63,484 nt of DNA, taken from positions 1 through 63,484 of the forward strand of contig JAHDSB010000022.1 in the NCBI GenBank assembly GCA_018433015.1, read 5' to 3'. Both the position numbers and the translations under genes were made by a program. Positions within the stretch are counted from its first letter, which is position 1. Each line of letters opens with the position of its first letter. This document shows, one piece after another, positions 4,125 to 38,339 of the stretch. The DNA is from Clostridia bacterium (GTDB lineage: Bacteria > Bacillota > Peptococcia > DRI-13 > SV3-B141). The notes under the pieces were generated by a model. The model saw only the letters and a program-made list of their open reading frames with translations, was not told the DNA's origin and did no database searches.

Positions 4125-4138
4125 AACTTCTAAAATTA

Positions 4139-5777: not shown

Positions 5778-5927
5778 TTCTTTTCCCCCCGATAAAGCTG
5801 CCCTTCATAATACATATATATGAAAGAGCTTCCTGTACACTTTCCTTAGTATTTAATTTTTTCTTCATTAAACTGCCCCATTTATCATAAATATGAATAG
5901 CATACAATTAGCAAAGAGGGTTAAGTT

Positions 5928-18215: not shown

Positions 18216-19646
18216 TCAGTCCTCCATTTTAAAATACTGCTTCGCAAAAGCAAAAGTTATTTCCGGGTATTCCTGACTCAAGGTTCCAAGGGCATACATA
18301 ATATATTTTTCATCACAAATAAATTGTGGGTTTAAAGGTAAGAGAGAAGGTCCAGGATTTTTGAAAGCTTTTTGTAAAATAAATTTCCTAGTTTCTTCAC
18401 TGGAATGGGTGAAGATACCTCCTACGGCAATAACATATTTAATTTTCCGCAAATCTCGACCGATGGGCGTGCCGGGTATTATCCCCATCAGGGGATCGAA
18501 ATCCTTGGCAATAAAACCGGCATGTCTTTTTAATGCTACTTCTATAGCGGAAATGGCCAGGGCAATATCAAATTCTCTTTCTAAATCTGAACTACTAATA
18601 TATTCGGGATTCTTTTCCAAGAAATTTGTATACTCTACTAATTTGTTGGCATATTCTTCTCCGTTTTTATCAATTTTTGCTAAAACACCCAAAGGTCCAA
18701 CGGCTTCCACTATTCCTGTGGCACTAACTCTTAGGCCTAGATTTCCTTCTACAGTCCGATAAGATGTTTGTTTTTCATTGTTTACTACTAGACCCTTTTC
18801 CTCAATACTAAGCTTTTCTAATCCCGGTAACACAGAATGAATATCTGTAGTAGCTCCACCCACATCTATTATCAGTACATCGCCTACTCCTTCTTGCTGG
18901 TAAGTGCCTTTAGCCAAAAGCTCTGCCCCCAGTAATATAGCACCGGGAGTAGGAACTACTTTTTTATTGGATACCTGCTCCAATAGTTTATTTAAACCTT
19001 TAGCATGTACAATCTGTTTAATAAATTGTTTATGAATGGCTTCTCGAGCAGGTTTTACATTTAATTCATGGATGGTAGGCATTAAATTAGGTACTCTAAC
19101 TGAAGCGATGTTATTTTTTGTTAATATATCTTCAACTTTAGCTTGAGCTTCTTTATTTCCTGCTATAATTACAACCGCTTTTACTGCCGCTTTAACTATT
19201 ATTTCAGCATTTTCTACTACTGATTCCTGGTCTCCACCATCGGTACCACCTGCCAGTAAGATAATATCAGGCTTTATTTCTCTTAAGACCTGAACTCTAT
19301 ATTCCGGTTGATCTTCATGAGAAATAATCTCTAGTACTCTGGCACCTGCGCTCATAGCCACCTCTTTGGCGGCTTTGGCAGTAACCCTAGGCATATACCC
19401 TAGGGCTACCATCCTTAAACCTCCAGCCGCACTGCTGGTAGAAAAAATTTGGTGTTCGCTAGCTATGCGGCAGCCCTGTTCTGTCAACTTTTGTTTAGCA
19501 TTATGAAAACCTAATTCAATATTATCTACCGTAGTGGGACCCTGGGTACGATCCTTATATTTTAAGACTCTATCAGCCAGTTCAAAGCCTGATAGTTTTG
19601 TATAGGTGCTGCCCACATCGAATACAAGCAAATTTACGTTACTCAT
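18216..19646 (-). CDS. MutL/GlmL-family protein, probable 2-methyleneglutarate mutase reactivase
   Basis: A 476-residue ASKHA-fold protein with phosphate-1 motif VFDVGSTYTKL at the N-terminus and a second nucleotide motif LIIDVGGATTD (about 263). GlmL/MutL proteins accompany B12-dependent glutamate mutase and related enzymes and are thought to act as ATP-dependent reactivating chaperones that exchange damaged cobalamin. Here it sits two genes downstream of the mutase gene, so I infer it serves 2-methyleneglutarate mutase. It must not be confused with the DNA-repair MutL. Confidence 0.88.
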   Translation of the reverse strand: MSNVNLLVFDVGSTYTKLSGFELADRVLKYKDRTQGPTTVDNIELGFHNAKQKLTEQGCRIASEHQIFSTSSAAGGLRMVALGYMPRVTAKAAKEVAMSAGARVLEIISHEDQPEYRVQVLREIKPDIILLAGGTDGGDQESVVENAEIIVKAAVKAVVIIAGNKEAQAKVEDILTKNNIASVRVPNLMPTIHELNVKPAREAIHKQFIKQIVHAKGLNKLLEQVSNKKVVPTPGAILLGAELLAKGTYQQEGVGDVLIIDVGGATTDIHSVLPGLEKLSIEEKGLVVNNEKQTSYRTVEGNLGLRVSATGIVEAVGPLGVLAKIDKNGEEYANKLVEYTNFLEKNPEYISSSDLEREFDIALAISAIEVALKRHAGFIAKDFDPLMGIIPGTPIGRDLRKIKYVIAVGGIFTHSSEETRKFILQKAFKNPGPSLLPLNPQFICDEKYIMYALGTLSQEYPEITFAFAKQYFKMED

Positions 19647-19669: not shown

Positions 19670-20803
19670 TTAGTCATTTACAATCCAAACATAGCCTTCC
19701 ATGATCCTACGTGCCGTCCGAGCAAAAGCGGCTCGAGCAACTTTGCCATCTTCTACAATAGACTCAACTCCAATAATTCCTGCGGGATGGCCGATACGAA
19801 TCTCATTATCCTCTTTATCCTGAGACATAACTTGATTAACAATAGTCCCTGGAATTCTAGCAGCTACACCTGTACATACAGTACCTGTACCGGGATAAGT
19901 TTTGTGCAGTACTTGCATGAACATTAAGCGGGAAACAAAATCTACCTGCTCTTTATTAATAGCATTACCTGTAGTAAAGTCTTCATAATCTTGGGCCGGA
20001 GAAACAAATGCAATCATAGGGAAAGCCGGGCTTTTGCTCGTTGCCGTTTCTACATCTGGAGCCATACCAATCATTACCGCAACTTTAGCGCGAATTTCTT
20101 CCAAATAATTTAATAAATCCTTGTTACCATTGATTTGTTGTGGGTTTTCTGTACCTTTCATTTCCACATCCTTAGCTCTTACGAAAACACAAGGATTAGC
20201 GCAATCTACGATAGAAGCTTCAATGGTACCTCTACTTGTTTCGATGGAATCAACAACTTTACCCGTTGGTAACAGTTTATTTGTTACTGAACCTGCTGTA
20301 TCAGCAAAATCCATCATTATCTTGGCTCCAGTGCCCGGCACTCCTGCAATCTTACAAGTTCCTGTTACTTTAGCTCTTCCATCTTTCACAGGTACTTCTG
20401 CTATCAGAATTTTTCCTGTATTAGTATTGTGTATTCTAACTGTAGTAACAGGTTCAACTGCTTTCACTAATCCTTCATCAATAGCAAAGGGGCCCACTCC
20501 AGAAGAAATATTTCCACAGTTACCGGAATAATCTACATAAGCAGTATTTATGCTAACTTGTCCAAATGTGTAATCCACATCAGCCTCAGGATGGGAAGAA
20601 GGTCCAATGATTGCTAGTTTACTAGTCAGAGGATCTGCTCCACCTAAACCATCTATTTGTCTTACATCGGGGCTACCAAAAATAGCTAAGATGGTTTTAT
20701 CCCGTAAAGCAGGCTCTTGAGGTATATGATTAGCTTTCAAAAAAATTCCTTTACTAGTGCCTGCTCGCATAATCACACAGGGTATTCTTTTTGTATCTTC
20801 CAT
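19670..20803 (-). CDS. mii: 3-methylitaconate isomerase (PrpF family)
   Basis: A PrpF-family isomerase of about 377 residues that moves the double bond of (R)-3-methylitaconate to give 2,3-dimethylmaleate. Family signatures are 'IPCVIMRAGTSKGIF' at the start, 'DGLGGADPLTSK' and 'GNCGNISSGVGPFAI'. Its start is ATG 20803, whose A is shared with the mutase stop (TAATG), giving tight translational coupling; the open frame upstream runs into the mutase. Other PrpF members act on aconitate or oxalomesaconate; the pathway context selects Mii. Confidence 0.93.
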   Translation of the reverse strand: MEDTKRIPCVIMRAGTSKGIFLKANHIPQEPALRDKTILAIFGSPDVRQIDGLGGADPLTSKLAIIGPSSHPEADVDYTFGQVSINTAYVDYSGNCGNISSGVGPFAIDEGLVKAVEPVTTVRIHNTNTGKILIAEVPVKDGRAKVTGTCKIAGVPGTGAKIMMDFADTAGSVTNKLLPTGKVVDSIETSRGTIEASIVDCANPCVFVRAKDVEMKGTENPQQINGNKDLLNYLEEIRAKVAVMIGMAPDVETATSKSPAFPMIAFVSPAQDYEDFTTGNAINKEQVDFVSRLMFMQVLHKTYPGTGTVCTGVAARIPGTIVNQVMSQDKEDNEIRIGHPAGIIGVESIVEDGKVARAAFARTARRIMEGYVWIVND

Positions 20804-22659
20804 TAACTCAGCTCCCCTCTTTTTCCTTCCAGAGCTTTGTCTAGCCACTCAATAAAATCAAGGGGCTCACTGCCTGGTCCGAAGAATCCATCCACACCCA
20901 TAAATCCTGTTCCTTCTGTAGCTATTTTTTCCTCAAAATAGGAATGTTCTTCTTCTTTTTCAGCCATTCTTCCCCCGGCTACTAACACTACTTTATCTCG
21001 TAGTCCTAATTCCTGTAAGCGCTTACCTACTCGGGGGAACAAATCTATACCTAAGCCCAACAAATTACTGATCCCTACTACGTCGGCATTTACTTCTGCC
21101 GCAACTTCTGCCACGGTTTCAGGTAGATTCATACCCCTCAGATAGACTACTTCAAAGCCGGCATTTTCTAGAGTATCTTTAATTAAATTAACGCCATTAA
21201 CATGGGCATCGGCTCCTACTGTAGCTAAAACAACTTTTTCCTTTCTAGTTGGTTTGGCCACTTGAGGAACTTCCACATTTTCTGAAGAAAAAGCAAATTT
21301 TGCTGGATCTATATTTAAGGGTGAAAACCCTGGTACATAGCGCTTAATCCCATCTTTATCACGGTGGGTTTTAACATGACGTTTTAAGTCCCAACCTCCG
21401 GCACGAGGAGCATCCAAAACACCAGACTTACCTGCTTCCACAATTTTATCTACCAATTCATCTGAACCATATTTTTTCCAGAAGTTCTCGTTTACTTCTT
21501 TGGGGTCTAAGGAACGATTGATACCCAAAGTCTTTTCTAAAACTGCCATGGCTTCTGTAAGGATTTCTTCCTTACGCTTATCAATCTGAGGATCTTTTAT
21601 TTCAATTTTATAAGTGTTTTCAAAGACATTCTGGGTGGCCCACATGGATTTAGCCATAGAGGCCCCTGTAGGAATTCCTACAGATTCTGCCGCCTTAGGT
21701 CTATAGAAATTTGCTCCTCCCAGCTTAGCGCTGATAGCCATTCTAGCAAAATGGGCACTCTCGGCAATTAAATCTCCCGGGGGATTCTGGAAGGTTTCCG
21801 GAACTACAATTAAAGAGCTGCTCCAGATTGTTTCCTTGAAGGCCTGCATTACTGCCAAATCAGCAAATAGGTTGATCCCGCCTACGTTCATCTGTACAGC
21901 ACTTAATTCCTTAGGTAAACCGGCAGCCACACCTAAACCTTCCGCCAGCATGCACATAGCCAAAGCCATGCCATCTGTGCCACCAATATTATTTAAGTGC
22001 TTATGGGAATCTATTTGTACAAAAACTTTATTCTCAGCACATACTTCCAAAGCTTTAAAGCCATTAATAACTTTAGTTTTATAATCATGAATTCCTCGTC
22101 CACCAAAGTGAACGTGAATTACGGGTCCAATATCAGTTCCATCAAAACCAGCAATAAAAGCATTTATAATGGAGAGATGAGGAGTATCTCCCGTAGCATT
22201 AATCCGCATGGGATGGACTGCTCCCCCGCCTAACTCCACTAACTTTCTTTCTCCCAGCGGAGTAATACCACCTTTTCCCCGGGACTGTTCAATCAATTCT
22301 CTCCCATCCAAGGGATCGATATGTCTGGTGGCTTCCGCATGAACAAAGTGAAAGATGTTAATACCCAGTTTTTCGGCCATGTTATACATTTCTAAAGACT
22401 CTTTGTAGGTTTCCTCAGCGGTATTACGTCCTAAAATGGGATTCAATACAGGTATACCTGTTTCTTCCGCCTTTTTCCCCAGTTCATAAATTCTGTAACC
22501 GCTTCTTTCTACACCACAAACCTTTCTGGGATAAGGTGCGGGGAGCCCAGAAATAGAGCCATCTTTGCCTACTTTAGGCATAGCTACACCAAATGTATCT
22601 TCGTATGCTTTTACTCTATCTTCTTCTTCTAGAATAATCTGCATCGTTCTCTCTTGCAT
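20803..22659 (-). CDS. mgm: 2-methyleneglutarate mutase (adenosylcobalamin-dependent)
   Basis: A 618-residue B12 enzyme rearranging 2-methyleneglutarate to (R)-3-methylitaconate. The N-terminal two-thirds is a TIM-barrel catalytic region. The C-terminal domain (about 480-600) is a B12-binding Rossmann domain with the base-off DxHxxG motif in GADAHVNG, followed by GISNLLGLG and VAGGRM. The start is ATG 22659, 9 bases after AAGGAGG; the open frame extends nine codons further into dmdB. No cobalamin riboswitch is visible nearby. The MutL-like gene two positions downstream is the likely reactivating partner. Confidence 0.94.
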
Positions 22660-22672
22660 ATAATAACCTCCT

Positions 22673-23164
22673 TTACACCACGCCAAGTTCTTGTCTAACC
22701 CGATTTATAAGGCCACCAGCATTCAAGGTTAATAATACATTTTCTGAAAGTGGGTTAAACTCAAAACTATTATTCCCCAAAACAGCTAGTCCTTTCTCTA
22801 AATCAACAGAAATTACATCACCTGTTTTTACTTTATCTTTTAAATCTGCGTTTAAGACAGGTAACCCAATATTAATAGCATTTCTGCGAAAAATCCTGGC
22901 AAAAGATTCGGCAATCACCAGACTTATGCCCGCTTGAGCCAAGGCTACAGGTGCTTGTTCCCTACTGGACCCACAACCAAAATTTTTCCCCGCTACAATA
23001 ATGTCACCTTTTTTTATTCTCTTGGGAAAATCCGGGATATTACTACCAGCCATGGCAAAATTTCCTAAAGTTTCAAAAGATTCCGCCATTGCGTATCCAG
23101 GAAGAATTTGATCTGTATCTACATTATCATCAAATACCCAAACTTGCCCTTTGATAACTTCCAT
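22673..23164 (-). CDS. dmdB: 2,3-dimethylmalate dehydratase small subunit
   Basis: A 163-residue swivel domain of the aconitase superfamily: '[12 protein letters not shown]', '[14 protein letters not shown]', and '[15 protein letters not shown]' with the substrate-binding Arg. It pairs with DmdA to hydrate dimethylmaleate to (2R,3S)-2,3-dimethylmalate. By sequence it resembles the isopropylmalate isomerase small subunit (LeuD); the nicotinate cluster order identifies it as DmdB. It starts on the base next to the DmdA stop. Confidence 0.92.
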
Positions 23165-24370
23165 TTATTTCACCTCCCAAGACTGAATCCCTTGGGGATC
23201 AACTAACCTGCCGTGTACTGCTGCTAAAGCAGCTGTAAGAGGGGAAGCTAAATATACTTGGGCTTGTCGGCTCCCCATACGACCGGGAAAGTTTCTATTC
23301 GTTGTAGAAACAACTACGTCATCCTCCGCCGCCAGACCAAGATGAGCACCAAAACAAGGTCCGCACCCCGGGCTTATTAAAGCAGCCCCGGCATTTCTGA
23401 TAATCTTACAGTATCCCCGCTCTTCCATGGCATCATATACGTTTTGAGATGCTGGAACAACAAGCATATTTACATCAGCATGAACATTATGATTCTTTAA
23501 TATACTAACTACTTGTTCCATATCGCTTAATCTTCCGTTTGTACAGCTACCTACAACTACCTGGGTAACAGCTATACCTTCTATTTCTTTAACAGGCTTC
23601 ACATTCCCAGGAGAAAAAGGACATGCTGCGGAAGGTACTATATTTGCCAGCTCAACAGTTAATGTTTCTGAAACATTAACTGCTTTCTCTTCCGTAGCAA
23701 AACAACTGATGGTAGCTCCCATTTCGATACCCATATTGCAAATTGTCATCCGTTCATCTTTACTTAAATCTGCGATACCTGGTCCACTAAAAATTACGGC
23801 TTTATCTGTAAGACCATCTGTTCCAAAATGTCTGATGAGCGTTAATATCAGATCTTTCGCTGTAACAAAAGCAGCTAAAGAACCTGTTAAATATACTTCC
23901 ACAACCTCCGGGACCTCTAAATCTATAGTACCCGTGGCCATAGCTGCTGCAAGTTCTGTTGACCCAACGCCAATCCCAAGAGCTCCATATCCTCCCGCTG
24001 TACAAGTATGGGAATCTGCCCCAATAATAAGAGTCCCCGGTTTTTGACCATGATTTTCTGATATTACCTGGTGGATAACACCCTGGCCTTTATCATAAAG
24101 AGTAACCCCATACTTTTTCGCAAAATCCTTAACAATTAACTGCATCTTTCTTGCTTGTACAGTAGCTGCCGGGTAAATGTGATCAACAACTATTACAACT
24201 TTGTTAGGATCAAATACTTTATCTATGCCAATCTTTTCAAATTGTTGAGCAGCCATAGGTCCTGTAACATCATGGGCAATTACTAGATCTACTTTACAAC
24301 GTATATCCTGTCCAGGAGAAACTTGTGCGAGACCGGCAGCCCTTGCAAGATATTTTTCTACAATATTCAA
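23165..24370 (-). CDS. dmdA: 2,3-dimethylmalate dehydratase large subunit
   Basis: A 401-residue catalytic subunit with the [4Fe-4S] ligands of aconitases: Cys in VVGSCTNG and the pair in GCGPCFG. It also has GADSHTCTAGGYGALGIGVG and NRNFPGRMG. Together with DmdB it converts dimethylmaleate to dimethylmalate. The start is TTG behind TAGGAGTGG. LeuC and homoaconitase are close relatives, and a homology-only annotation would probably call this 3-isopropylmalate dehydratase. Confidence 0.93.
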   Translation of the reverse strand: MNIVEKYLARAAGLAQVSPGQDIRCKVDLVIAHDVTGPMAAQQFEKIGIDKVFDPNKVVIVVDHIYPAATVQARKMQLIVKDFAKKYGVTLYDKGQGVIHQVISENHGQKPGTLIIGADSHTCTAGGYGALGIGVGSTELAAAMATGTIDLEVPEVVEVYLTGSLAAFVTAKDLILTLIRHFGTDGLTDKAVIFSGPGIADLSKDERMTICNMGIEMGATISCFATEEKAVNVSETLTVELANIVPSAACPFSPGNVKPVKEIEGIAVTQVVVGSCTNGRLSDMEQVVSILKNHNVHADVNMLVVPASQNVYDAMEERGYCKIIRNAGAALISPGCGPCFGAHLGLAAEDDVVVSTTNRNFPGRMGSRQAQVYLASPLTAALAAVHGRLVDPQGIQSWEVK

Positions 24371-24382
24371 AAGTATCCACTC

Positions 24383-25807
24383 CTATTCAACAAGCTCTAT
24401 CTTTAGTTTGTCAGCAATCTCTCTTGCATCTTCAGTGCTTGGAACAGCACGGGTTAGTACTAACCTTCCTCCCCCGCGGTTTAAAGCCTCTACTAAATAT
24501 TTTCCCTCTGTAGTTTCTATAGTAACTCGTTGGATTTGGGATTCCTCTACCTGGATAATATCAACCTCAATGCCCTTTTCTTTAACTTTATCCATTACTT
24601 CCCGATATGCTTTTCCATCATCGGTAGCAGCTCCGAAAACCGCTGCCATTAACATGCCCGGTACATTTATACCTCTTCTGGCAAACAACTCTGGATATAG
24701 TTCAATAATTACCTTCTTAATCTCACCCTTACTCAAAAAGTGAGCTATCCGTGCAGTATTGGTGGGGGAGCCAACTGCCTGACTGCTACCTCCTACTACT
24801 GCCATACCAAAAGGTTTAATTATACTGTTAGCATTTTTAGCTAAATATCTAGCTTGTTCTAAAGCTTTTTCGATAATTTCTTCTTTTCGTTCCTCTTCCA
24901 CTTCTTTAACTGCAGAACATACATAATCTTCTACAGCACCATTAGTCTTAAAGAAGGGTTCCATATATTGTATTACCGTTGGTACTATAGCTTTAGCAGA
25001 AATAGGATGAACTGCTGCTGCCATAGAAATCATTACATCAACAGGCACAGTTACCGGTATTGTGGTTTGAAGAGCCAGTTGACTGGCTAACTTCCCAATC
25101 ATTACTGCTCCGCCGATGTGGGTTGCACAAAGTCCCGCCACCATTACCCGTGGTGTACAAGGATTAGCTATGGTAGGAGAAATGGCCAAAACTATGGCCT
25201 TACCCAATTGTTCAGGAGTTCCATTAGAAAGCTCAGTAAAACCGGCTGCTAAGGACGCAGAACCTGCTCCAAATCCCTCCATATTACAACCTGTTGATGT
25301 TTTTCCTACACGAAACATAGTACCAACCTTAAGCACCACGGCTGCAACACGAGCTATAGTATCCTGATCCTTAATATCTTCTATCATGGCCCTCACAAAT
25401 CCCGTATAGGGACAAGAATCGCCCGTGCCCGCACAAGGTTGTAAACCTACAGAATGATTGCCCACCTGGGTACCTAGTGTATATACTAAAGTTTTATTTA
25501 AAAAGTCATCATCGACTATTTTAGGAGCACCTTTACCTGATAGTTCTTTTCCTATGGTACCAAAAAGGAAACTGGAACCCGATGTGGTTCCCAATTCAGA
25601 GGCATATAAGTTATGGGAGAAGCTAGCAATTACTGCGGAATTAACCTCCGCTTTCGACATTTGATTTACTTCCATGGCTTCTGCAATAATAACATCACTA
25701 ACACGTGTTTTAGTTGCTTGTGCTACTTTGATGCAATCGCCAATAGTCAATTCTCCTAACTTTAAACCTTTTTCTTTTATGACATCATAGATGTTATTCA
25801 ATAACAT
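24383..25807 (-). CDS. hmd: 2-(hydroxymethyl)glutarate dehydratase, serine-dehydratase-like
   Basis: About 474 residues, related to the alpha domain of iron-sulfur L-serine dehydratases, with conserved cysteines in QPCAGTGDSCPYTG and TGCNMEGFGAGSA that suit an oxygen-sensitive [4Fe-4S] cluster. It would remove water from 2-(hydroxymethyl)glutarate to form 2-methyleneglutarate, the role proposed for the matching gene in the E. barkeri cluster. It overlaps the hgd 3' end by 14 bp. Start choice is uncertain: GTG 25810, ATG 25807 or TTG 25801 (6 bases after GAGGTG) are all possible. An annotation as serine dehydratase would be misleading. Confidence 0.88.
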   Translation of the reverse strand: MLLNNIYDVIKEKGLKLGELTIGDCIKVAQATKTRVSDVIIAEAMEVNQMSKAEVNSAVIASFSHNLYASELGTTSGSSFLFGTIGKELSGKGAPKIVDDDFLNKTLVYTLGTQVGNHSVGLQPCAGTGDSCPYTGFVRAMIEDIKDQDTIARVAAVVLKVGTMFRVGKTSTGCNMEGFGAGSASLAAGFTELSNGTPEQLGKAIVLAISPTIANPCTPRVMVAGLCATHIGGAVMIGKLASQLALQTTIPVTVPVDVMISMAAAVHPISAKAIVPTVIQYMEPFFKTNGAVEDYVCSAVKEVEEERKEEIIEKALEQARYLAKNANSIIKPFGMAVVGGSSQAVGSPTNTARIAHFLSKGEIKKVIIELYPELFARRGINVPGMLMAAVFGAATDDGKAYREVMDKVKEKGIEVDIIQVEESQIQRVTIETTEGKYLVEALNRGGGRLVLTRAVPSTEDAREIADKLKIELVE

Positions 25808-26690
25808 CACCTCTGACTTGTACGTTTAATAGGTCTTCCCATACCTTGATAATTGCTGAAATATCTTCTCTACCTAAACCTTTAGCGCGGGCCATTTCGT
25901 ATACCTGTTGTGCACTATTTGTTACAGGCATGGGAACACCCAAATTCTTTCCTGTTTCCACTGCCAATTCTAAATCTTTATATTGTAAATCCACTGCAAA
26001 ACCAGGAGCAAACTCACCTTTTAAAATAAAGTTAGGCATCTTTGCTTCTAGAGCGTAACTCCTGCCAGAACTGGATTTAATAATGTTGTACATGGTCTCA
26101 GGTTTTAATCCGGCTTTTACACCTAATACTAAAGCTTCCGCCACGGCAGCCATATTAGCTCCCAAGAGAAGATTGTTAACGATTTTTACTGCATCTCCAG
26201 CTCCTACTTCACCAATATGCTGGATACGACCTAATTTATCTAAAACAGGGCGGGCCTTTGCTACAGTCTCCTGATGGCCACCCACCATAATAGTTAAGGT
26301 ACCGGCTGTTGCCCCGCTAACACCACCACTAACAGGGGCATCTATATATTTTGCTCCTTTTTTCTCAACAAACTGAGCCATTTTTTTTGTGGTATGGGGA
26401 GCAACACTACTCATGTCAACAATAATTTGTCCTGCCTTTATTCCGGCCAGCATTCCCCCGTCACCTAACATAACGCTTTCCACAATTTTTGCATTAGGAA
26501 GCATAGTAATAACTAGCTCACATTTTTTTGCAATTTCTTGTGGTGATGAACATTTTTCAGCTCCTAATAAAACTAATTCTTCTACTGCTTTTTCATTTAC
26601 ATCAAATACATTGAGCTGAAAATTCGCTTTAATTAGATTGTGGGCCATAGGTTTCCCCATGGCGCCCAATCCGATAAAGCCAATGATCAT
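25794..26690 (-). CDS. hgd: 2-(hydroxymethyl)glutarate dehydrogenase
   Basis: A 298-residue member of the beta-hydroxyacid dehydrogenase family. The Rossmann motif GFIGLGAMGKPMA is at the start, the substrate segment DAPVSGGVSGATAGTL is near 120, and the catalytic lysine lies in VKIVNNLLLG. It reduces 2-formylglutarate to 2-(hydroxymethyl)glutarate with NADH. The start is ATG 26690, after GGGAG. 3-Hydroxyisobutyrate dehydrogenase and tartronate semialdehyde reductase are near homologues; the neighbours (enamidase upstream, dehydratase downstream) fix the assignment. Confidence 0.92.
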   Translation of the reverse strand: MIIGFIGLGAMGKPMAHNLIKANFQLNVFDVNEKAVEELVLLGAEKCSSPQEIAKKCELVITMLPNAKIVESVMLGDGGMLAGIKAGQIIVDMSSVAPHTTKKMAQFVEKKGAKYIDAPVSGGVSGATAGTLTIMVGGHQETVAKARPVLDKLGRIQHIGEVGAGDAVKIVNNLLLGANMAAVAEALVLGVKAGLKPETMYNIIKSSSGRSYALEAKMPNFILKGEFAPGFAVDLQYKDLELAVETGKNLGVPMPVTNSAQQVYEMARAKGLGREDISAIIKVWEDLLNVQVRGDVIE

Positions 26691-26733
26691 ATTAATCACT
26701 CCCATCGACTTATAGTTCTTCTAAATTTTAGGC

Positions 26734-28183: not shown

Positions 28184-29689
28184 TTAGTCCCTTTTCTGTT
28201 CCTTTTTTAAATCCTGCAGATCTTTTATCTTGTCCATATGTCCCCCGATAGCCTCATAATCCTTTAGCTTCATGGTGTACTCTGCCGGAGCAACAGTGGC
28301 TGGAGTAGGTACCCAGGTAAAAGCCTTAGGTACAACCTTATCTACATCCACTAAAAAGTTTATCCCACCACCGGGTAAAATATAGGTCGGTGCTCCTCCT
28401 ACAGTAAGTTTTACTTTTTCTTCATGAACTGCTTTTGTTAAGGCTAAGGGTTGGCTAGTGGCACCTGCTCGGGCACTTCCCCCTACACCACCAAAGTACA
28501 TAATGGAAACACTGGATTCTTCACAATTATTTTTGATGTGATTTACTAGTTCTTCTACTTCCGGTGTCAAGCTGATTTCTTGTACTTCACCATTTTCTTG
28601 AACTTCAAATAAAGCAAATTTTTGTCCTGTTGTTTCTGTTACTAGTATTTTCATTCCCGGGGTTGCCTTACTCATATCTACTTCTTTAATGGCATCCCGT
28701 GGATTTTCTATATCAGTTCCACCCCAACCGTGTCCATGCTCTCCAAAATATCTTCCCCTCGTACTTTTTCTAGCATTGGGTACTACTCCACTCCAAGTCA
28801 TGCCTACTTCAGCGCCGGCTAAATGCTCAGAGAAAAGTCCTACAACATGATGATCCAGGATAATAGCTTCATCAACTATCCCCTTCATTTTTCTGGCAAA
28901 AAGGCCAATAGTTGCACTGCCACAGCCCACACGCATTTTAGTATCTTCCACACCATTGATAACGGGACGCATACCTTGTTGAACTTCTATTTTAGCTCCG
29001 TTTTCAATAGCTAATGTAACCCTTTCACCATTAGCTAATTCCACTATTGTACGAGCCACAATAAAGCCATCTTTTCCTGTCAAAAGATTTGCTCCACCAA
29101 TGGAGAGCATTTTAGAACCGTATTGTTCAGTCTCCACAATTCCTACCAATTTACCATTGCGCTTAACCTTAGCTCCTTCTTCTCCAACATAGAAGTTTGT
29201 ATCAATTTTTACTTTAACTCCGCTGTAACTTAAAGGAACTTCTGTTACAACAGTTACTACTTCTACTTCATCAATGCAATCTTTTACGATATGAGGAGCC
29301 GGTTTAACGCAGGGATAAGATGTTCCTGCACCAACAGCTGTTATTAAAGGTTTTGCTGTAGCTTTTTCTACATTAGGTTCATATACCGTATCAATTTCTA
29401 ATTGTCTATTTCGTACTAATTCACCATCAATATTTGTATATCTCTTACAAGCTCCTGTATAGCCCGGACGTATTTCACATTGTACAGGACAGGAGGTGCA
29501 TTTTGCTATTTCTGCTGCACTTTCTGAGCGTGTAATAGCTGCGAATTTACAAACACGGATGCACACGCCACACTGTACACATTTTTCATTCACTACTGCT
29601 TTCTTATCAATAACTTCTAATGCTCCAGCCGGGCACTCTCTCACACAAAGTCCGCAACCTTTACATTTCTCTATGTCAATTAGAACCAA
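28184..29689 (-). CDS. hnr: 6-hydroxynicotinate reductase
   Basis: About 501 residues. An N-terminal two-[4Fe-4S] ferredoxin domain (CKGCGLCVRECP and CVQCGVCIRVCK) is followed by further cysteines (CTSCPVQCEIRPG) and a large catalytic region. The enzyme reduces 6-hydroxynicotinate to 1,4,5,6-tetrahydro-6-oxonicotinate using reduced ferredoxin. GGGGAG lies 8 bases before TTG 29689, which I take as the start; GTG 29698 overlaps that site. It is four genes downstream of ndhL and follows enamidase by 13 bp, as expected for consecutive pathway steps. Confidence 0.92.
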   Translation of the reverse strand: MVLIDIEKCKGCGLCVRECPAGALEVIDKKAVVNEKCVQCGVCIRVCKFAAITRSESAAEIAKCTSCPVQCEIRPGYTGACKRYTNIDGELVRNRQLEIDTVYEPNVEKATAKPLITAVGAGTSYPCVKPAPHIVKDCIDEVEVVTVVTEVPLSYSGVKVKIDTNFYVGEEGAKVKRNGKLVGIVETEQYGSKMLSIGGANLLTGKDGFIVARTIVELANGERVTLAIENGAKIEVQQGMRPVINGVEDTKMRVGCGSATIGLFARKMKGIVDEAIILDHHVVGLFSEHLAGAEVGMTWSGVVPNARKSTRGRYFGEHGHGWGGTDIENPRDAIKEVDMSKATPGMKILVTETTGQKFALFEVQENGEVQEISLTPEVEELVNHIKNNCEESSVSIMYFGGVGGSARAGATSQPLALTKAVHEEKVKLTVGGAPTYILPGGGINFLVDVDKVVPKAFTWVPTPATVAPAEYTMKLKDYEAIGGHMDKIKDLQDLKKEQKRD

Positions 29690-29702
29690 AGTTGTCACTC
29701 CC

Positions 29703-30863
29703 CTATTTTGTCATTGGTTTTTTGTTGGCAGGAGGTGTGTTTCTACTTTTGCTTACTAAGATTTCCCCATCAACGATAACCATGGCAACACCGGGAATAT
29801 CTCCTTCTTCTATAGCCCTTACAGCATTTTCTCCCACGGATCCCATAGGAGTATCCATAATCAAGAGATCTGCTTCTTTGCCAACTTCAATCTGACCAAC
29901 ATTTAATCCAAATACTTCAGCTGTATTTCCAGTTGCACAAGCTATAGCTTCTGCACCACTTATGCCAGACATACTAGCAATCTGACAGATGGAACGTAAA
30001 ATTCCTAAAGGAATAATCCCTGTACCGGAAGGTGAATCATTACCTATAATCAAGCGGTTTAATTGTCCTTTTTCTTTTAAAGTGCTAGCAACTTGGTGAG
30101 CTGCTTTAGGATTACCGCATTGTACAATTTCTAAAGTAAGGTTTGTTTCATCAATAAGTCTATCTATCTCTTCTGGTTTAATAGCTGTAGGTCCACCATT
30201 GATATGGTTAACTACGGTAGGATCAGTCTTTATAACATCATCAGCAGTTACTGTGGAACTGCCAGGAATGGAAGTACCGCCACAATGCATCATAACTCTA
30301 AAACCATGTTTTTTGGCCCATTTTACCATAGGTGCGGCATCTTCAGGCTTTTTAACTCCGCCTAATCCTATTTCACCTACCAGCCATACGCCTTGTTCAG
30401 CTAATTCAGCAAAATCTTCTTCTTTTAAACCGTGTTCTAAAATGAGAGCCCCTGCATGAAGCTTCACTCCACCTGGTCTACTGTTATAAGCACTTTTACT
30501 TGCTAATACTGCTAAGGCCTTTACACCTGCAGGATCTTTAGGACGTCCAGGAGTGTGAGGTTCACCAGCGGATATCATAGTAGTAACTCCGCCATGTAAA
30601 GAACTACTAATAAAATCTACAGTTTTTTGTCTAGGGGTGTAATCACCAATAACAGGATGCACATGGGAATCAATTAATCCTGGTGTAACAGTAGTACCAT
30701 TTGCATCAATAACTTTTAGGCCTTTGTATTTTTCTAGAAGCTCTTCTCCACCAATAGCTGCTATCTTTTTATCCTGCACAACTATAGTGTTGCCTTCCCT
30801 AATGGGGTTTTTAATGTTACCGCTGACAATAGTACCAATGTTTGTGATGATTAATGAACTCAT
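29703..30863 (-). CDS. ena: Enamidase (tetrahydro-6-oxonicotinate hydrolase)
   Basis: A 386-residue amidohydrolase, the same length as the E. barkeri enzyme. It opens the 1,4,5,6-tetrahydro-6-oxonicotinate ring to 2-formylglutarate and ammonia. Metal ligands of the amidohydrolase barrel are visible: HVH in IDSHVHP, His in MMHCGGTS, His in VNHINGG and the Asp in GNDSPSGTG. A C-terminal beta-sandwich segment ('KEADLLIMDTPMG') completes the fold. It is preceded by a transporter and a strong intergenic hairpin and followed by hnr. Confidence 0.93.
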   Translation of the reverse strand: MSSLIITNIGTIVSGNIKNPIREGNTIVVQDKKIAAIGGEELLEKYKGLKVIDANGTTVTPGLIDSHVHPVIGDYTPRQKTVDFISSSLHGGVTTMISAGEPHTPGRPKDPAGVKALAVLASKSAYNSRPGGVKLHAGALILEHGLKEEDFAELAEQGVWLVGEIGLGGVKKPEDAAPMVKWAKKHGFRVMMHCGGTSIPGSSTVTADDVIKTDPTVVNHINGGPTAIKPEEIDRLIDETNLTLEIVQCGNPKAAHQVASTLKEKGQLNRLIIGNDSPSGTGIIPLGILRSICQIASMSGISGAEAIACATGNTAEVFGLNVGQIEVGKEADLLIMDTPMGSVGENAVRAIEEGDIPGVAMVIVDGEILVSKSRNTPPANKKPMTK

Positions 30864-31988: not shown

Positions 31989-32975
31989 TTAATTACGTTC
32001 TTTTTTAATTTCTTTTAATAATTTTTCTGGAGTCACTGGCAAATCAGTAATTCTTACCCCTACTGCATCATATATGGCATTAACAATAGCAGCGGCAGTA
32101 GGTATTAGTGCAGGTTCTCCCACTCCCTTGGCACCAAATGGGCCTGTAACCTCTGGATCTTCAACTATGATGGGATATATTTCCGGAGTATCCATAGCGG
32201 TAGGAATTAAATACGTTGCAAGGTTGGGAGTTTTTATATTTCCTTTATCTACTTTCACTTGCTCCATAAGAGCGAACCCTACTCCTATCATGCACCCCCC
32301 CTCTATCTGACCTTCTACATTTATGGGGTTTATCGCTTTTCCCACATCATGGGCAGCGAAAATCTTTAAAACCTTTACTTCTCCTGTTTCTGTATTAACT
32401 TCTACCTCTGCAACTTGTGTTGCAAAAGCATAAGTAGCATATGGTTTGCCTTGTCCATCTTCCGGATTTAGAGCAGTAACATCCGGGTTAAACCAACCAT
32501 GACCCAGGGTAAGTTTCCCTTCAGCACGACATTTACCTAAACATTCTTTTATTTTTACAAACTTATCCTTGTCGTTTTTTACAACTATCTTTCTATCTTC
32601 AAGAATTAAACTATCTTCATCTACCTCTAACATCCTAGCTGCCGTTTCTACTAATATTGTTTTAGCTTCTTTAGCTGCCATTTTTACTGCATTCCCGGAT
32701 ATATATGTTTGCCTACTGGCCGATGTGGCTCCTGCATCAGGAGTTATTCCCGTATCAGCAGATACAACCCTTACATCTTCTATGTCAACGCCCATTTCTT
32801 CGGCAGCAATTTGCGCTAAAGTTGTTGTTGAACCTTGCCCTATATCAGCACAGCCTGTTAAAACAATAACTGTACCATCATCAAGTAATTCTATATAAGC
32901 ACTGGCCGGATTAGGTAACCCTGTATTTCCTATGCCGTACCACATGTTTGCCAAACCAACACCACGTTTTTTCAC
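31989..32975 (-). CDS. ndhM: Nicotinate dehydrogenase medium molybdopterin subunit
   Basis: A 328-residue C-terminal half of a xanthine-dehydrogenase-type molybdopterin subunit. It contains 'GCADIGQGSTTTLAQIAAEE', 'GATSASRQTYISGNA' and the catalytic Glu in GPFGAKGVGEPALIP. In most relatives this half is fused to NdhL; the split L/M arrangement is characteristic of the E. barkeri nicotinate dehydrogenase. The start is GTG after GGGGGG. It follows ndhL by 13 bp. Confidence 0.94.
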   Translation of the reverse strand: MKKRGVGLANMWYGIGNTGLPNPASAYIELLDDGTVIVLTGCADIGQGSTTTLAQIAAEEMGVDIEDVRVVSADTGITPDAGATSASRQTYISGNAVKMAAKEAKTILVETAARMLEVDEDSLILEDRKIVVKNDKDKFVKIKECLGKCRAEGKLTLGHGWFNPDVTALNPEDGQGKPYATYAFATQVAEVEVNTETGEVKVLKIFAAHDVGKAINPINVEGQIEGGCMIGVGFALMEQVKVDKGNIKTPNLATYLIPTAMDTPEIYPIIVEDPEVTGPFGAKGVGEPALIPTAAAIVNAIYDAVGVRITDLPVTPEKLLKEIKKERN

Positions 32976-32988
32976 TATTTATCCCCCC

Positions 32989-34260
32989 TTAAAATTTGTC
33001 CCCTAGCACCTTTTCTGCTGCTTGTTTTGCACTTTCCATGGTAGATTTTAAACCTACACTGTGTTCCAATTTTGAACCTGTAGCTGTGATAGAGCCGGGA
33101 ATAAACGCATTCTTCATACGAATTTCCAGAGGAGATATACCAAGTTTTTCAGCTAGTAAATTCATTTGTGACTCATGGGCAAATGCTACCTGAGGAACTC
33201 CAAAACCTCTCATAGCTCCCGCTTGCGGATTATTAGTATATACTGTATACGCTTCTACCTTGACATTAGGAATCTCATAAGGACCTGTAGCATGTACTGC
33301 TGCTCTGGTAAGCGTTCCAGGACCGTATGAAGCATAAGCACCTGTATCTCCAATTATTTCAGTTTGCCAAGCAATCAATTTTCCATCTTTATCGCATCCA
33401 GTTTTATACTTCATAATAAAAGGATGTCGCTTAACTGTATTACTAATGGATTCTCTTCTAGAATAAACCATCTTAACTGGACGTTTAGTAGCTTTGGCCA
33501 GGAGGGCAACATGTACGTGCACTGTAACATCTAGTTTTCCTCCAAATCCTCCCCCTGTGGTGGTCTGGATTATCCTGGCTTGATTCAAACCAATATTTAA
33601 ATTGTAAGCAACATCTTTGCGGTCATAATGGGGATTCTGGGTACATACCCAAACGTTAACTACATCCCCTTCCATTTTTGCTACTCCCGCTTCCGTCTCT
33701 ATATAAGCATGTTCTACCATGGAAGTTGTGTAATCTTGTTCTACAATCACATCACAATTTTTAAATGCTTCTGCTACATCGCCCTTCACTATTCTTCTGA
33801 CTGCCATAATGTTTCCCTTTTCATAGAGCTTAGGTGCATCATCCTTCATAGCATCTAGGGGAGAAAAAACTGCTGGTAATTCTTCAACTTCAACTTCTAT
33901 CAAATCTAAAGCTGCCTCTGCTATTTCTTCAGTTTCTGCTGCAACAATCGCTAGAGGATCTCCAATTTTTCTAATCCTTTGACCAATACCTACTAATACC
34001 GGTTCATCTTTTACTATAATCCCTGCTTTATTCACACCTGGTATATCTTGTTCCGTTAATACAGCATGTACACCGGGTAATTCTAGAGCTTGGGAAACAT
34101 TTATTTTCTTAACAATTCCATGGGGGACTTTGCTACGTAAGGTTTTTCCATAGAGCATACCATCCATTTTAATATCAGCAGCAAAAATAGCAGTGCCAAG
34201 CACCTTTTCTTTAACATCTTTTTTCTTTACATTTTGACCTACAACTTTAAGTTGGCTCAT
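32989..34260 (-). CDS. ndhL: Nicotinate dehydrogenase large molybdopterin subunit
   Basis: A 423-residue N-terminal half of the molybdenum subunit, with 'VLGTAIFAADI' near the start, the molybdopterin-contact motif TTGGGFGGK and AMRGFGVPQ. With NdhM it binds the Mo-MCD cofactor and, in E. barkeri, a labile selenium, and hydroxylates nicotinate at C6. GGAGGGG precedes the ATG. A selenium ligand cannot be read from sequence because that selenium is not selenocysteine; no in-frame UGA is present. Confidence 0.94.
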   Translation of the reverse strand: MSQLKVVGQNVKKKDVKEKVLGTAIFAADIKMDGMLYGKTLRSKVPHGIVKKINVSQALELPGVHAVLTEQDIPGVNKAGIIVKDEPVLVGIGQRIRKIGDPLAIVAAETEEIAEAALDLIEVEVEELPAVFSPLDAMKDDAPKLYEKGNIMAVRRIVKGDVAEAFKNCDVIVEQDYTTSMVEHAYIETEAGVAKMEGDVVNVWVCTQNPHYDRKDVAYNLNIGLNQARIIQTTTGGGFGGKLDVTVHVHVALLAKATKRPVKMVYSRRESISNTVKRHPFIMKYKTGCDKDGKLIAWQTEIIGDTGAYASYGPGTLTRAAVHATGPYEIPNVKVEAYTVYTNNPQAGAMRGFGVPQVAFAHESQMNLLAEKLGISPLEIRMKNAFIPGSITATGSKLEHSVGLKSTMESAKQAAEKVLGDKF

Positions 34261-34279
34261 ATCTGCCCCTCCTTTCTTA

Positions 34280-34753
34280 CTACTTATTCAGCTCTTTGCT
34301 GGCTTTTTCTACAGCTTTAACAATTTTTGCATATCCTGTACATCTACATAAATTACCGGAAAGACCTTTTTTAATCTCTTCAGGAGTTGGGTTGGGGTTT
34401 TCATCTAGCAAGGCTTTAGAACTCAGGATCATACCCGGAGTACAAAAGCCACATTGTACAGCACCCTCTTCAACAAAAGATTTTTGTAAAGGATGTAATT
34501 CCTCTCCCTTAGCTAATCCTTCGATGGTAGTGATCTTTTTTCCGTCTACAGTAACTGCCAGTACCATGCAAGAATTAACTGTTTTTCCATCCATAATTAC
34601 AGTACAAGCTCCACATTCACCTTCACCGCAACCCACCTTGGTTCCCGTTAAACCTAATTCTTCTCTTATCAAATCCACTAGCAATACTTGTGGTTCTACT
34701 TCAACTTTATATTCCTTATCATTAAGGGTAAATTTAATTAGCTTTTTATTCAT
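34280..34753 (-). CDS. ndhS: Nicotinate dehydrogenase small iron-sulfur subunit
   Basis: A 157-residue subunit with two [2Fe-2S] clusters: the plant-ferredoxin type (CGEGECGACTVIMDGK then SC) and the alpha-helical type (CGFCTPGM and CRCTGY). It passes electrons from molybdenum to the FAD subunit. Its start overlaps the ndhF 3' end by 8 bp, and GAGGAAG lies upstream. Confidence 0.95.
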   Translation of the reverse strand: MNKKLIKFTLNDKEYKVEVEPQVLLVDLIREELGLTGTKVGCGEGECGACTVIMDGKTVNSCMVLAVTVDGKKITTIEGLAKGEELHPLQKSFVEEGAVQCGFCTPGMILSSKALLDENPNPTPEEIKKGLSGNLCRCTGYAKIVKAVEKASKELNK

Positions 34754-35618
34754 TGCCCACTTCCTCCCTTGCTCTTTGCAATGCTGTTTTCAATCCCTGA
34801 TATACTAAGGAAGCCGCCGTAGTACTGCGATACTCTGCAGTGGAACGTATATCATCAATAGGTTTTATTGCATCCTGAGCCATTTGGGCTGCTTGCTTGA
34901 ATACGTCATCTTCTGCTTTTTGACCCTTTAACCATTTTTCAACTTCAAGCAACCTAATAGGCGTTGGAGCAACGGAACCAAAAGCAATTCTAACCTCAAC
35001 TATTTCATCTTTATCAACTCTCAGCCAAACCGCACAATTTATTACCGATATGGCTAAAGCCTTTCTTTTACCCATTTTTACAAAAGCTGCGCCTTCGCCT
35101 TCTTTGATTGATCTTACTTTTAATTTTGTGATAACTTGTCCCTCAGTTAAAAAGGTTTTTCCTGGTCCTTTAAAAATATCCAGGAGATTTTTTTCCTCTT
35201 TATGATTTTTACTCTCTATCTGAACTGTGGTATCAAGGACTAAAAGAGCCGGCACTGTATCGGCAGCTGGCGAAGCATTTCCAATATTACCACCTACAGT
35301 CCCTATATTTCTAATCTGGGGCGAACCTACTTGAGCAGCAGCTTCTGCTAAAACATAAGCATACTTCTTCACCAGATCAGATTCTTCTATTTCAGTGTGG
35401 GTAGCTAAAGGCCCTATATTTAAATGATCCTCCTCGCTACTTATACCTTTTAATTCCTGCACATCATTTAAATCTACAATGTTTTGTGGAGAAACAATTT
35501 TATCTTTCATTTTTACTACGATATCTGTCCCACCAGCTAAAAAATAATAATTCCTTAAATTATCTAGTACGTTTAATAGTTCTTCCATGCTTTTGGGATT
35601 ATAATATTCAAAGTTCAA
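34746..35618 (-). CDS. ndhF: Nicotinate dehydrogenase FAD subunit
   Basis: A 290-residue FAD-binding subunit of the CO-dehydrogenase/xanthine-dehydrogenase medium type, with YYFLAGGTDIVVKM, 'RNIGTVGGNIGNASPAAD' and the C-terminal 'IRSTAEYR' stretch. It transfers electrons to NADP in E. barkeri. I place the start at TTG 35618, 8 bases after GGAGG. An in-frame ATG at 35660 would put the start on the predicted transcription start of the sigma-54 promoter. It is the first gene of the 17-gene nicotinate operon. Confidence 0.93.
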   Translation of the reverse strand: MNFEYYNPKSMEELLNVLDNLRNYYFLAGGTDIVVKMKDKIVSPQNIVDLNDVQELKGISSEEDHLNIGPLATHTEIEESDLVKKYAYVLAEAAAQVGSPQIRNIGTVGGNIGNASPAADTVPALLVLDTTVQIESKNHKEEKNLLDIFKGPGKTFLTEGQVITKLKVRSIKEGEGAAFVKMGKRKALAISVINCAVWLRVDKDEIVEVRIAFGSVAPTPIRLLEVEKWLKGQKAEDDVFKQAAQMAQDAIKPIDDIRSTAEYRSTTAASLVYQGLKTALQRAREEVGNE

Positions 35619-35672
35619 ACTGCTCACCTCCTGAAAAATTGGGTTAATAATTATTTTCACATAATTATAGTT

Positions 35673-35982: not shown

Positions 35983-37563
35983 TTAGTCCAACCGGATTCC
36001 GTATTCTGTCATTTTTCTCCATAGTGTGGTAGTACTTATTCCTAATGAATGGGCGGCATCTTTTTTAGATCCTCCCTTAATTTTTAAGGCTTTTTCTATA
36101 GCTTCTTTCTCCGCCTCTGCTACAACTTCTGTTAAAGATAGCATTTTGGGCTGCTGTCGAATATTTTTATTTTCAAAAATATATGAGGGTAAGTGTCCTA
36201 CATTTATAGTATTTTCATTAAGTTTAACCATATTCATGGCATGTTCAATGCAGTTTTGTAGCTGTCTAACATTACCAGGCCATTCATATGCTAAAAGATA
36301 ATTCCTGGCTCCCTCACTTATCCCCACAACATATTTTCCCAGTAGTTTGTTATAGCTATTAATGAAATGTTTCACTAGCAGAGGAATGTCTTCTATACGT
36401 TCCTTTAAAGAAGGTACCTTTATTTGAACCACATTCAAACGATAGAAAAGATCTTCCCTAAAATTGCCTGATCTTATTTGCTCTGTTAAATCTTTATTTG
36501 TTGCGGATATAACTCTTACATCTATTTTTATGGACTGAGAACTACCGATTCTAGTAACTTCACGTTCCTGCAAAACTCTTAACAACTTACTTTGCAAATT
36601 ATAATCCATTTCACTTATTTCATCTAAAAATATAGTTCCTCCATTGGCCTGCTCAAAAGAACCTGGATTACCACTTTTCTTAGCTCCCGTAAAAGCTCCA
36701 CCTTCATAACCAAACAAATAACTTTCAATCAGAGATGATGGTAAAGCTCCACAGTTTATAGCTACAAAGGGTTCGGCACGCCTTTCGCTACTATTGTGTA
36801 TAGCCTGAGCAAAAAGCTCTTTACCTGTTCCGGTTTCTCCAAGAATCAATACAGAAGAAATCCCTTGAGAAATAAACGAGGCTATACTTTTTACCTTTTT
36901 TATAGCGTCACTCTCTCCTATGATATCACTAAAATTATATTTAGCGTATTGGAACTTTTTAACTTCTTCCAACAACTTGTGTTCCCGTTGTGTACCTTCT
37001 TCATTATTAAAACCGAAGCCATATTCTTTAGTAATAGGAATTCTAACTCCAACTGCCCCAGTAACAGACATGGATTCTCCAATAACCGGTTTTTGCTTTT
37101 CCATAGCTTCCTGAGCTGCTTTACTAACACTGCCAATAAAACGCTTACTAATATTTCCTTGGTAATCATAACTTAATAATCTTGTTCCCTTATTGTCGAA
37201 CAAAACGGCTTCCCCTCCAGCCACCCTTGCAATAAGAGGTAAAGCTTCTTGTAGTGCTTCTTTCAACTTTTGCTCCCGCAAAACAAGTTCGATATTACTT
37301 GCTGCTAACACATATTCCCCTATAGGAAAAGCCCAAGCTTCTGCATTCTCAACGATTACCGATTTTCCTGTTTGAATACTTCCTGTTTCTCCTGCTTTTT
37401 GGGCCAGCTTGTACACTTTTCCAATAAGTTCTTCTACTTCTTCACCTTCTGAATCAAAGGTTTTTATCCTCGCTCCATCTCTAGCTGTTACAGTGGCATA
37501 TCCTCCTGATATTCTCGATATTACAGGTAATACATCGAGCAATGTTTTTAAAATTTCTGACAT
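35983..37563 (-). CDS. Sigma-54-dependent activator with duplicated N-terminal sensor
   Basis: A 526-residue enhancer-binding protein. The N-terminal 200 residues hold two copies of one domain: 'VLPVISRISGGYATV' (about 10) and 'ALPLIARVAGGEAVL' (about 110), each followed by a similar G..K/KRFIG..K helical segment. The AAA+ domain (about 215-450) has Walker A GETGTGKE and the GAFTGA loop, and a Fis-type HTH ends the protein (GISTTTLWRKMTEYG). I recognise no standard sensor name for the repeats. The sigma-54 promoter and inverted repeat directly downstream make it the likely nicotinate- or intermediate-responsive activator. Confidence 0.92.
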   Translation of the reverse strand: MSEILKTLLDVLPVISRISGGYATVTARDGARIKTFDSEGEEVEELIGKVYKLAQKAGETGSIQTGKSVIVENAEAWAFPIGEYVLAASNIELVLREQKLKEALQEALPLIARVAGGEAVLFDNKGTRLLSYDYQGNISKRFIGSVSKAAQEAMEKQKPVIGESMSVTGAVGVRIPITKEYGFGFNNEEGTQREHKLLEEVKKFQYAKYNFSDIIGESDAIKKVKSIASFISQGISSVLILGETGTGKELFAQAIHNSSERRAEPFVAINCGALPSSLIESYLFGYEGGAFTGAKKSGNPGSFEQANGGTIFLDEISEMDYNLQSKLLRVLQEREVTRIGSSQSIKIDVRVISATNKDLTEQIRSGNFREDLFYRLNVVQIKVPSLKERIEDIPLLVKHFINSYNKLLGKYVVGISEGARNYLLAYEWPGNVRQLQNCIEHAMNMVKLNENTINVGHLPSYIFENKNIRQQPKMLSLTEVVAEAEKEAIEKALKIKGGSKKDAAHSLGISTTTLWRKMTEYGIRLD

Positions 37564-37734
37564 TTTTACACCTCTGAATCAAGTTTTCATATTTATGATT
37601 ACCTTTATTTTAAAATTATATATAATAATATCGTGTTAGCAAGTATATAAATGAAACAATCTCTTTGTATATATTGGATATATGTATTATCACCCCTTAT
37701 TTGGTAAATGTTTTCTCTTTATTTTTTAATTTTG

Positions 37735-38031
37735 TTAGAGTACAGTTACGACACTGTGCGGTGCAGTACCGTCGATCACAGCAACTCCTAAATCTGGAAT
37801 TACCACCCCATCTAGCGAATTACTATCAGACGAACAATAATAGTATTCAATGTCATAACCTTTTTCATTGAAACGTGTTCCAATGTTTTTCATTAATGTA
37901 GATTTGCCGACACCAGGGCCTCCTTTAATGATAAAAATACGTCTAGGATTAACGATATAGTCATAAAATGAAAAGAACCCATCAGCTGTATTGCTTCCCG
38001 GAAATACCTTTTTTATTCTACCTTTGGACAT
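37735..38031 (-). pseudogene. 5' fragment of island-interrupted two-P-loop ATPase
   Basis: The first 92 codons of the ATPase whose remainder lies at 3272-4108, followed by six codons (SVVTVL) and a stop from the island arm. It has the opening 'KVFPGSNTADGFFSFYDYIV', Walker A IKGGPGVGKST (about 35-44) and 'LDGVVIPDLGVAVIDGTAPH'. AGGAGG precedes the ATG, so the truncated 98-residue product is probably made. It keeps one complete P-loop but lacks the rest of its domain. Confidence 0.87.
37746..37771. other. Right attachment junction of the island
   Basis: The core dinucleotide is TG at 37757-37758. The element arm TTACGACACTG lies to its left and ATPase codons CGGTGCAGTACC to its right. With the left arm it forms the symmetric attP. 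Confidence 0.8.
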
Positions 38032-38235
38032 AAATCCTCCTCCTCTGTAGAGTGGTTAATTTCACAATTAGGCTATGTATAACAACCTCATATGGTTACT
38101 AGAAACCGTATTGTATACCATATATTTAACCTAAAAGTTTTTCACTACTAAGACTCCTGCTGCTTTCAAGAGATAAGTAGTGCCAAGCCAGCTTGCATAT
38201 AGTAATAGCTCGTAAGTATTACCAGCATGGATAAC

Positions 38236-38285
38236 GAGTTCTAACCTTCAGGAGGAATTTAAATTCCTCCTGAAGGTTAGAACTC
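38236..38285. repeat. 50-bp perfect palindrome
   Basis: Two 25-base arms, each beginning GAGTTCTAACCTTCAGGAGG on its own strand, meet without a loop. It occupies the gene-free stretch between the betaine-type binding protein and the ATPase fragment. Apart from this palindrome and the adjacent terminator I see nothing in 38032-38338. Confidence 0.85.
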
Positions 38286-38292
38286 TGTTTAT

Positions 38293-38339
38293 AAGAAGAA
38301 AGAACTGGTCGCAATTTTCACGACCAGTTCTTTCTTCTT
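38293..38339 (-). terminator. Terminator of the betaine-type ABC operon
   Basis: Perfect 19-bp stem (AAGAAGAAAGAACTGGTCG and its complement) with a 9-nt loop, directly after the stop of the binding-protein gene. Confidence 0.85.

Follow-up and report, generated by a model that had tools for sequence, protein, structure and literature searches.

A 33.6-kb metabolic island at codon 92 of a clostridial PRK06851 NTPase gene is a probable sporulation gene-intervening element

In the window, by which we mean the whole 63,484-nucleotide stretch of clostridial DNA analysed, a PRK06851 NTPase gene is divided at codon 92 by an island of 33,647 bp, counted between two crossover CA dinucleotides (4110-4111 and 37757-37758). 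We consider it probable, at roughly 0.7, that this island is a sporulation gene-intervening element comparable to skin and gin, which would be excised in the mother cell by a large serine recombinase (LSR) acting with a directionality factor, the gene being thereby rebuilt. That the island can leave precisely is strongly supported by the sequence itself; that it would do so in the mother cell we infer from the nature of the interrupted gene and from the precedent of skin, gin, vfbin and yin. The main features of the locus are as follows.

3272-4109, minus strand: 3' half of the split PRK06851 NTPase gene (from the last base of codon 92 through codon 370 and the stop; NF005320 positions 95-362, E 1.1e-51)
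4110-4111, minus strand: crossover dinucleotide CA at the 3'-half junction, attL-type, arms roughly 4080-4135 (attB/attP reconstruction, 14 elements)
4139-5656, minus strand: LSR of 505 aa, 27 bp from the 3' junction (Pfam Resolvase, Recombinase and Zn_ribbon_recom)
5625-5777, minus strand: ORF of 50 aa that overlaps the beginning of the recombinase gene (small ORFs hold the corresponding position in other elements)
5928-6662, plus strand: PdaB-like polysaccharide deacetylase, divergent from the recombinase (Pfam PF01522; NCBIfam TIGR02764 spore_ybaN_pdaB, 193 bits, below the cut-off of 237)
6821-35660, minus strand: metabolic cargo, plus transport and regulatory genes (Pfam)
35983-37563, minus strand: sigma-54-dependent regulator, final gene before the 5'-half junction (Pfam PF00158)
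37757-37758, minus strand: crossover dinucleotide CA at the 5'-half junction, attR-type, arms roughly 37733-37790 (attB/attP reconstruction, 14 elements)
37757-38031, minus strand: 5' half of the split PRK06851 NTPase gene (codons 1-91 with the CA of codon 92; NF005320 positions 4-95, E 4.5e-35)
38070-38096, minus strand: sporulation-type promoter motif of the NTPase gene, AC-N17-CATAGCCTA, with the -10 box ending 38 nt before the ATG (CATANNNT test)

The open reading frame at 37735-38031 on the minus strand encodes 98 aa, the first 92 belonging to the NTPase and the remainder being read-through into the element. Both halves fit one model, NF005320 (NCBIfam PRK06851.1-6, 363 positions), and meet at its position 95, so that the split falls at one residue; the match covers nearly the full model across both halves, at scores lower than the NCBIfam cut-off of 556 bits, a value reached by none of the 398 genomes. 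Joining CA to CA yields GCA CCG CAT ATG GTC GAT and a frame of 370 aa with zero stops (...IDGTAPHMVDPKNPG... across the junction), and since intact orthologs read DGTAPH-[I/V]VDP across the split point the frame is fixed, a CA two bases further on being expected to shift it. In fact, the original prediction that excision restores the ATPase in frame is confirmed from the sequence, its proposal that His-92 is split and rebuilt as CAT agrees with the ortholog reading, and the two halves are, as it held, undamaged, with a single model covered at 4-95 and 95-362. The presence of both P-loops, also claimed, holds for the first, a canonical GGPGVGKST, but not for the second, GDPGTGKGK, which is degenerate in having no Ser/Thr after the Lys of the Walker A motif. 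Such degeneracy of the second P-loop is frequent across PRK06851, many intact members being equally or more eroded there, and the joined window protein falls outside the class with two intact P-loops, the most abundant among dual-wield NTPases (PMC10949312). The 5' half is 57-68% identical to the 5' halves of other split genes, and no second copy of the NTPase gene was found elsewhere in the window's genome. Two perfect inverted repeats lie closely upstream of the gene, at 38236-38285 (25 bp, no loop) and 38293-38339 (19 bp, 9-nt loop), and a seven-copy repeat with 21-nt spacing occupies 357-584 of the window, within the ORF 198-647.

The attP reconstructed for the window, ttattacaacacta-CA-cagtgtcgtaactg, forms an inverted repeat at 15 of 24 positions (p 0.0005, none of 2000 shuffles being as good), and an inverted repeat around the CA is found in all 14 elements (p 0.0005 to 0.0445 for the 13 others), with GTTTCTACGGTAGACACGACACTG-CA-CAGGGTCGTGTCTACCCAAGAAAC as the common form. 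Both the short shared core and the exact restoration of the frame by which a sporulation gene-intervening element is recognised are present here. All three usual LSR domains are found in the recombinase (Pfam), and relatives at 48-56% identity adjoin the same NTPase 3' half elsewhere. Twelve LSR matches exceed 400 bits in the 398 genomes, 11 beside a split gene and one on a contig ending before the site; those below ~390 bits sit elsewhere, except for a distant one in G114 that lies inside the split gene, as does that of G243 (398 bits). The 3' half directly follows the recombinase in all of L091, L093, L095, L096, L097 and L098 (Moorella stamsii); relatives in named genomes were found with an alignment query, a single-sequence scan of contigs giving none.

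Interruption of the gene at codon 92 recurs in no fewer than 14 genomes under 11 family labels, the window's included (G000, G003, G046, G047, G070, G076, G091, G109, G114, G197, G210, G243, G401 and G413), out of 292 sampled family carriers, and the carriers with names include Moorella stamsii and a Symbiobacterium MAG. The elements at codon 92 span 5.1 to 33.6 kb and differ in cargo, that of G003 being a type I restriction system (by inspection). This recurrence suggests a reusable, sporulation-compatible landing site, and we lean slightly towards the broader idea that codon 92 is a general clostridial landing pad, used independently by multiple serine-recombinase lineages with varied cargo, which would survive there either by mother-cell excision or by bringing their own promoter and codons 1-92. 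In G025, G136 and G264 an intact gene lies behind a duplicated upstream region with codons 1-92 that ends at the crossover (380 bp at 95.5%, 455 bp at 99.6% and 419 bp at 88.8%, respectively), the copy in G264 comprising the full promoter and codons 1-92. We read the elements of these three genomes as bringing their own 5' part, so that the gene and the attachment site would both be restored; in G025 older copies would be decaying further upstream. There (L036; 2847-3225, 6432-6806, 8339-8685 and 12392-12685) three such copies stand before the intact gene; two of the copies are partial, each ends at the crossover and the farther ones are more decayed, which looks like successive insertions by elements carrying a replacement 5' part. 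Copies with attR-like arms upstream of the intact gene were seen in L088 (G136; 333-787 and 15918-16372) and L089 (G264; 391-806 and 4532-4946), and one of the same kind, in part, in L037 (G012; 5081-5155); the stretches read of L088, L089 and L037 hold no recombinase of the window's clade.

PRK06851 is the dual-wield NTPase family of which C. difficile CD3298 is a member (PMC10949312). CD3298 appears in the sigma-E list (PMC3789822), depends on sigma-E for its mother-cell expression, and is needed for loading calcium-dipicolinate into spores, the mutant holding less than 1% of the normal dipicolinate (DPA) (PMC5509370, confirmed in PMC10449524). The window gene is presumably orthologous to CD3298, on the basis of family membership; the existence of several PRK06851 subfamilies weighs against the favoured reading. 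Among 398 genomes of the phylum with completeness of at least 90%, spoIVA is present in 287 of the 292 family carriers and in 53 of the 106 non-carriers (Fisher p 3e-30, genomes counted regardless of phylogeny), and it is kept in all 14 split genomes, the window's included. In 27 of 66 orthologs the motif CATANNNT, the -10 box common to sigma-E and sigma-K, ends at a distance of 25-60 nt from the start codon, where shuffles give 3.3 +/- 1.8 (maximum 11), and both results agree with a sporulation role of the family. In the window, AC-N17-CATAGCCTA corresponds to a sigma-K-type arrangement; a strict sigma-E matrix did not pick out the window promoter (p 0.49). The splitting of a PRK06851 gene, the co-occurrence with spoIVA, the promoter motif and the role of CD3298 together place the element in a sporulation gene. 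Regular excision, which the original prediction had likened to that of elements interrupting sporulation genes, stands in part: precise excision would restore the frame, but no excised form was seen in the data analysed. The likeness to such elements is stronger than was claimed, since in C. difficile the family that the island interrupts is a sporulation gene of the mother cell, and the window copy has a sporulation-type promoter motif. No report of an interrupted PRK06851/CD3298 gene was found in the open-access literature.

The chief rival reading, which we regard as unlikely, is that the island is simply a recent insertion, that is, a null allele of a gene dispensable in this lineage, with rare excision and halves yet to decay. 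Low decay is explicable by recent arrival, and LSRs 89-96% identical occur in host NTPase targets that are only 40-68% identical, which indicates that the elements moved between distant hosts, that this subgroup spread recently and that several insertions are recent. Nevertheless, decayed ATPase halves, named beforehand as the observation that would speak against restoration, were sought in other species, and all 13 split genes that could be joined by script (out of 14) rejoin with the frame kept and without internal stops or frameshifts. These joined genes retain 92-100% of 66 conserved columns, the 53 intact genes averaging 97% and the window's gene, with 92%, standing at the bottom of the range for split genes. 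Within genera, dN/dS ranges overall from 0.05 to 0.2, with 0.05 for split G046 against intact G310 (dS 0.55; same genus) and 0.11 for G197 against G243, both split (dS 1.08; same genus); together with the open frames these low values fit continued use of the split genes, which they do not prove, since part of each comparison predates the insertion. Recent insertion is further opposed by elements with unrelated or deep-branching recombinases (23-56% identical to the window's) that lead to the same result, by the retention of spoIVA in every split genome, and by the extra 5' segments beside an intact gene in G025, G136, G264 and partly G012, as if an unrepaired insertion were selected against.

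Split alleles can nonetheless be fixed, as the loss of the recombinase in L100 and G091 indicates. In L100 (3001-3901) the recombinase is reduced to its N-terminus and is directly followed by the 3' half minus its first ~35 codons, and the split allele is no longer rebuildable. G091 keeps a recombinase remnant of 72 aa only (L072 6588-6806), and the one notable change in its joined gene replaces an invariant glycine of the P-loop by Asp, the gene being otherwise 99.5% identical to the intact gene of G049 from the same genus; this is possibly decay beginning after the loss of excision, although one substitution is an anecdote. Recent insertion with rare excision would also fit the finding of the integrated form only, with no joined attB sequence, in the assembly of the window's genome, and of no attP of sister elements in viral contigs. 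G359 had appeared to be an assembly with both joined and split forms, on two contigs with exactly 127 nt in common, and was rejected: the common piece reaches from about codon 30 to codon 92 and no further, and what lies upstream of it differs between the contigs, which fits an intact gene and a partial 5' copy. Contig ends near attL (L094, G270) were too weak for use as signs of excision.

The partner of the recombinase in the favoured reading, excision in the mother cell, is proposed to be the 50-aa ORF, a candidate recombination directionality factor. It is 47% identical to its counterpart in L091 (E 4e-12) and 36% to that in L092 (E 3e-8), and similar small ORFs precede related recombinases despite divergence at the DNA level; neither Pfam nor PHROG gave a family for this ORF and its relatives. 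Upstream of the small ORF, a ~60-bp block (aatggtaattatttctccccgggtcgtcc...cataaactgaattaatga) is almost the same in nine elements (L032, L033, L073, L076, L077, L079, L081, L094 and L098), which differ in the DNA further upstream. A search of the recombinase operon for a sigma-E/sigma-K promoter gave no convincing match, only the conserved leader block, and this result, like the failure to see an excised form, counts against developmental excision. Both the promoter result and the clear horizontal spread would suit an element that leaves and re-enters at low frequency for cell-to-cell transfer, restoration of the gene being a by-product, and the excised circles of yin in C. botulinum were present at all times tested (PMC10747680). 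We hold such non-developmental excision to be rather doubtful: the target gene carries a sporulation-type promoter motif and occurs almost only in spore formers, and if it acts as in C. difficile rare excision would result in DPA-poor spores (PMC5509370).

Within the cargo, Pfam identifies the following genes, all on the minus strand.

17350-18207, minus strand: PEP-mutase/ICL-type lyase
18216-19646, minus strand: MutL
19670-20848, minus strand: PrpF-type isomerase
20803-22686, minus strand: B12-binding mutase
22673-24370, minus strand: aconitase-type hydratase subunits
25794-26705, minus strand: 3-hydroxyisobutyrate-type dehydrogenase
28184-29698, minus strand: reductase with 4Fe-4S
29703-30863, minus strand: amidohydrolase
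31989-35660, minus strand: molybdenum dehydrogenase subunits

This enzyme set, which we take to be that expected of anaerobic nicotinate fermentation by the Eubacterium barkeri pathway, gives the cargo the appearance of a pathway resembling nicotinate degradation, and the element holds two sigma-54 regulators (Pfam). The PdaB-like deacetylase may be a sporulation gene that travels with the island; CATACAAT at 5901-5908, 19 nt before its start, could be a sporulation -10 box. Large serine recombinases are typical of phages, and distant relatives of the window's LSR occur there, the nearest being that of Alicyclobacillus phage MMB025 (35.5% identity over 71% of the query), with the SPbeta recombinase at 30%. 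However, the Pfam searches of element genes turned up no phage structural, packaging or replication gene and no conjugation gene, which argues against a prophage, and no close recombinase was found in viral contigs (best 33%), so that a prophage or integrative conjugative element seems highly improbable.

Among the known systems gin, a ~29-kb non-prophage island in gerE of Bacillus cereus ATCC10987, comes close to the window island, as both reside in a mother-cell sporulation gene, possess a serine recombinase and allow precise in-frame reconstitution. Excision of gin during sporulation has been demonstrated, with the serine recombinase GirC and the small directionality factor GirX (42 aa), three recombinase genes and a 9-bp repeat core (PMC5595907). 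The window island, for which excision is deduced from sequence, probably also has a small factor (the candidate 50-aa ORF), but it occupies PRK06851 and not gerE, has CA instead of a 9-bp repeat and one recombinase gene near the junction instead of three, and carries a catabolic pathway, which gin does not. Likewise, skin in sigK of B. subtilis and C. difficile is a serine-recombinase element splitting a mother-cell gene, and its excision restores that gene in a cell whose DNA is not inherited, although skin is prophage-like, has a different target and is under proven developmental control (PMC5025042, PMC4191935). In C. botulinum V73, yin interrupts yabG, also a clostridial sporulation gene, and has a serine recombinase, both circle and rebuilt gene having been observed; it differs in being prophage-like, in its target gene and in its occurrence in one strain only (PMC10747680). 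As cited in PMC4191935 and PMC10747680, vfbin in spoVFB of B. weihenstephanensis is described as interrupting a mother-cell gene of dipicolinate metabolism as well, but one for a synthase subunit rather than for an NTPase linked to DPA loading, and as prophage-like. Alicyclobacillus phage MMB025, whose integrase is the phage relative mentioned above, is a prophage in sigK and differs in being a 105-kb infectious phage with another target gene (PMC13141910).

We hypothesize that codon 92 of the PRK06851 (dual-wield NTPase, CD3298-like) sporulation gene serves as the attachment site, where the LSR would integrate an attP circle at attB (DGTAP-CA-Y-VVDP) by exchange of the CA dinucleotide. In the mother cell, the recombinase and a directionality factor, for which the 50-aa ORF is the candidate, would excise the element and rebuild the 370-codon gene, whose product would be needed only there, for loading calcium-dipicolinate into the forespore. 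The forespore chromosome would retain the island, and the arrangement would thus be inherited.

Each of the sporulation-gene elements known so far is a single case, and most of them derive from prophages (sigK, spoVFB, spoVR, spsM, gerE, yabG). Here the target gene appears to be new, the window's element is not a prophage and has metabolic cargo, and a single site in one gene is occupied in no fewer than 14 of the 292 sampled carriers; the elements there lack phage genes and can hold a whole catabolic pathway. The codon-92 elements also offer recombinases with a defined, conserved target, and they serve as a warning for annotation, as split NTPase genes look broken in assemblies yet are probably functional. 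If the proposed mechanism is true, it would account for large metabolic islands inside a gene needed for good spores, and it predicts that the rebuilt NTPase gene would be found only in sporulating cells.
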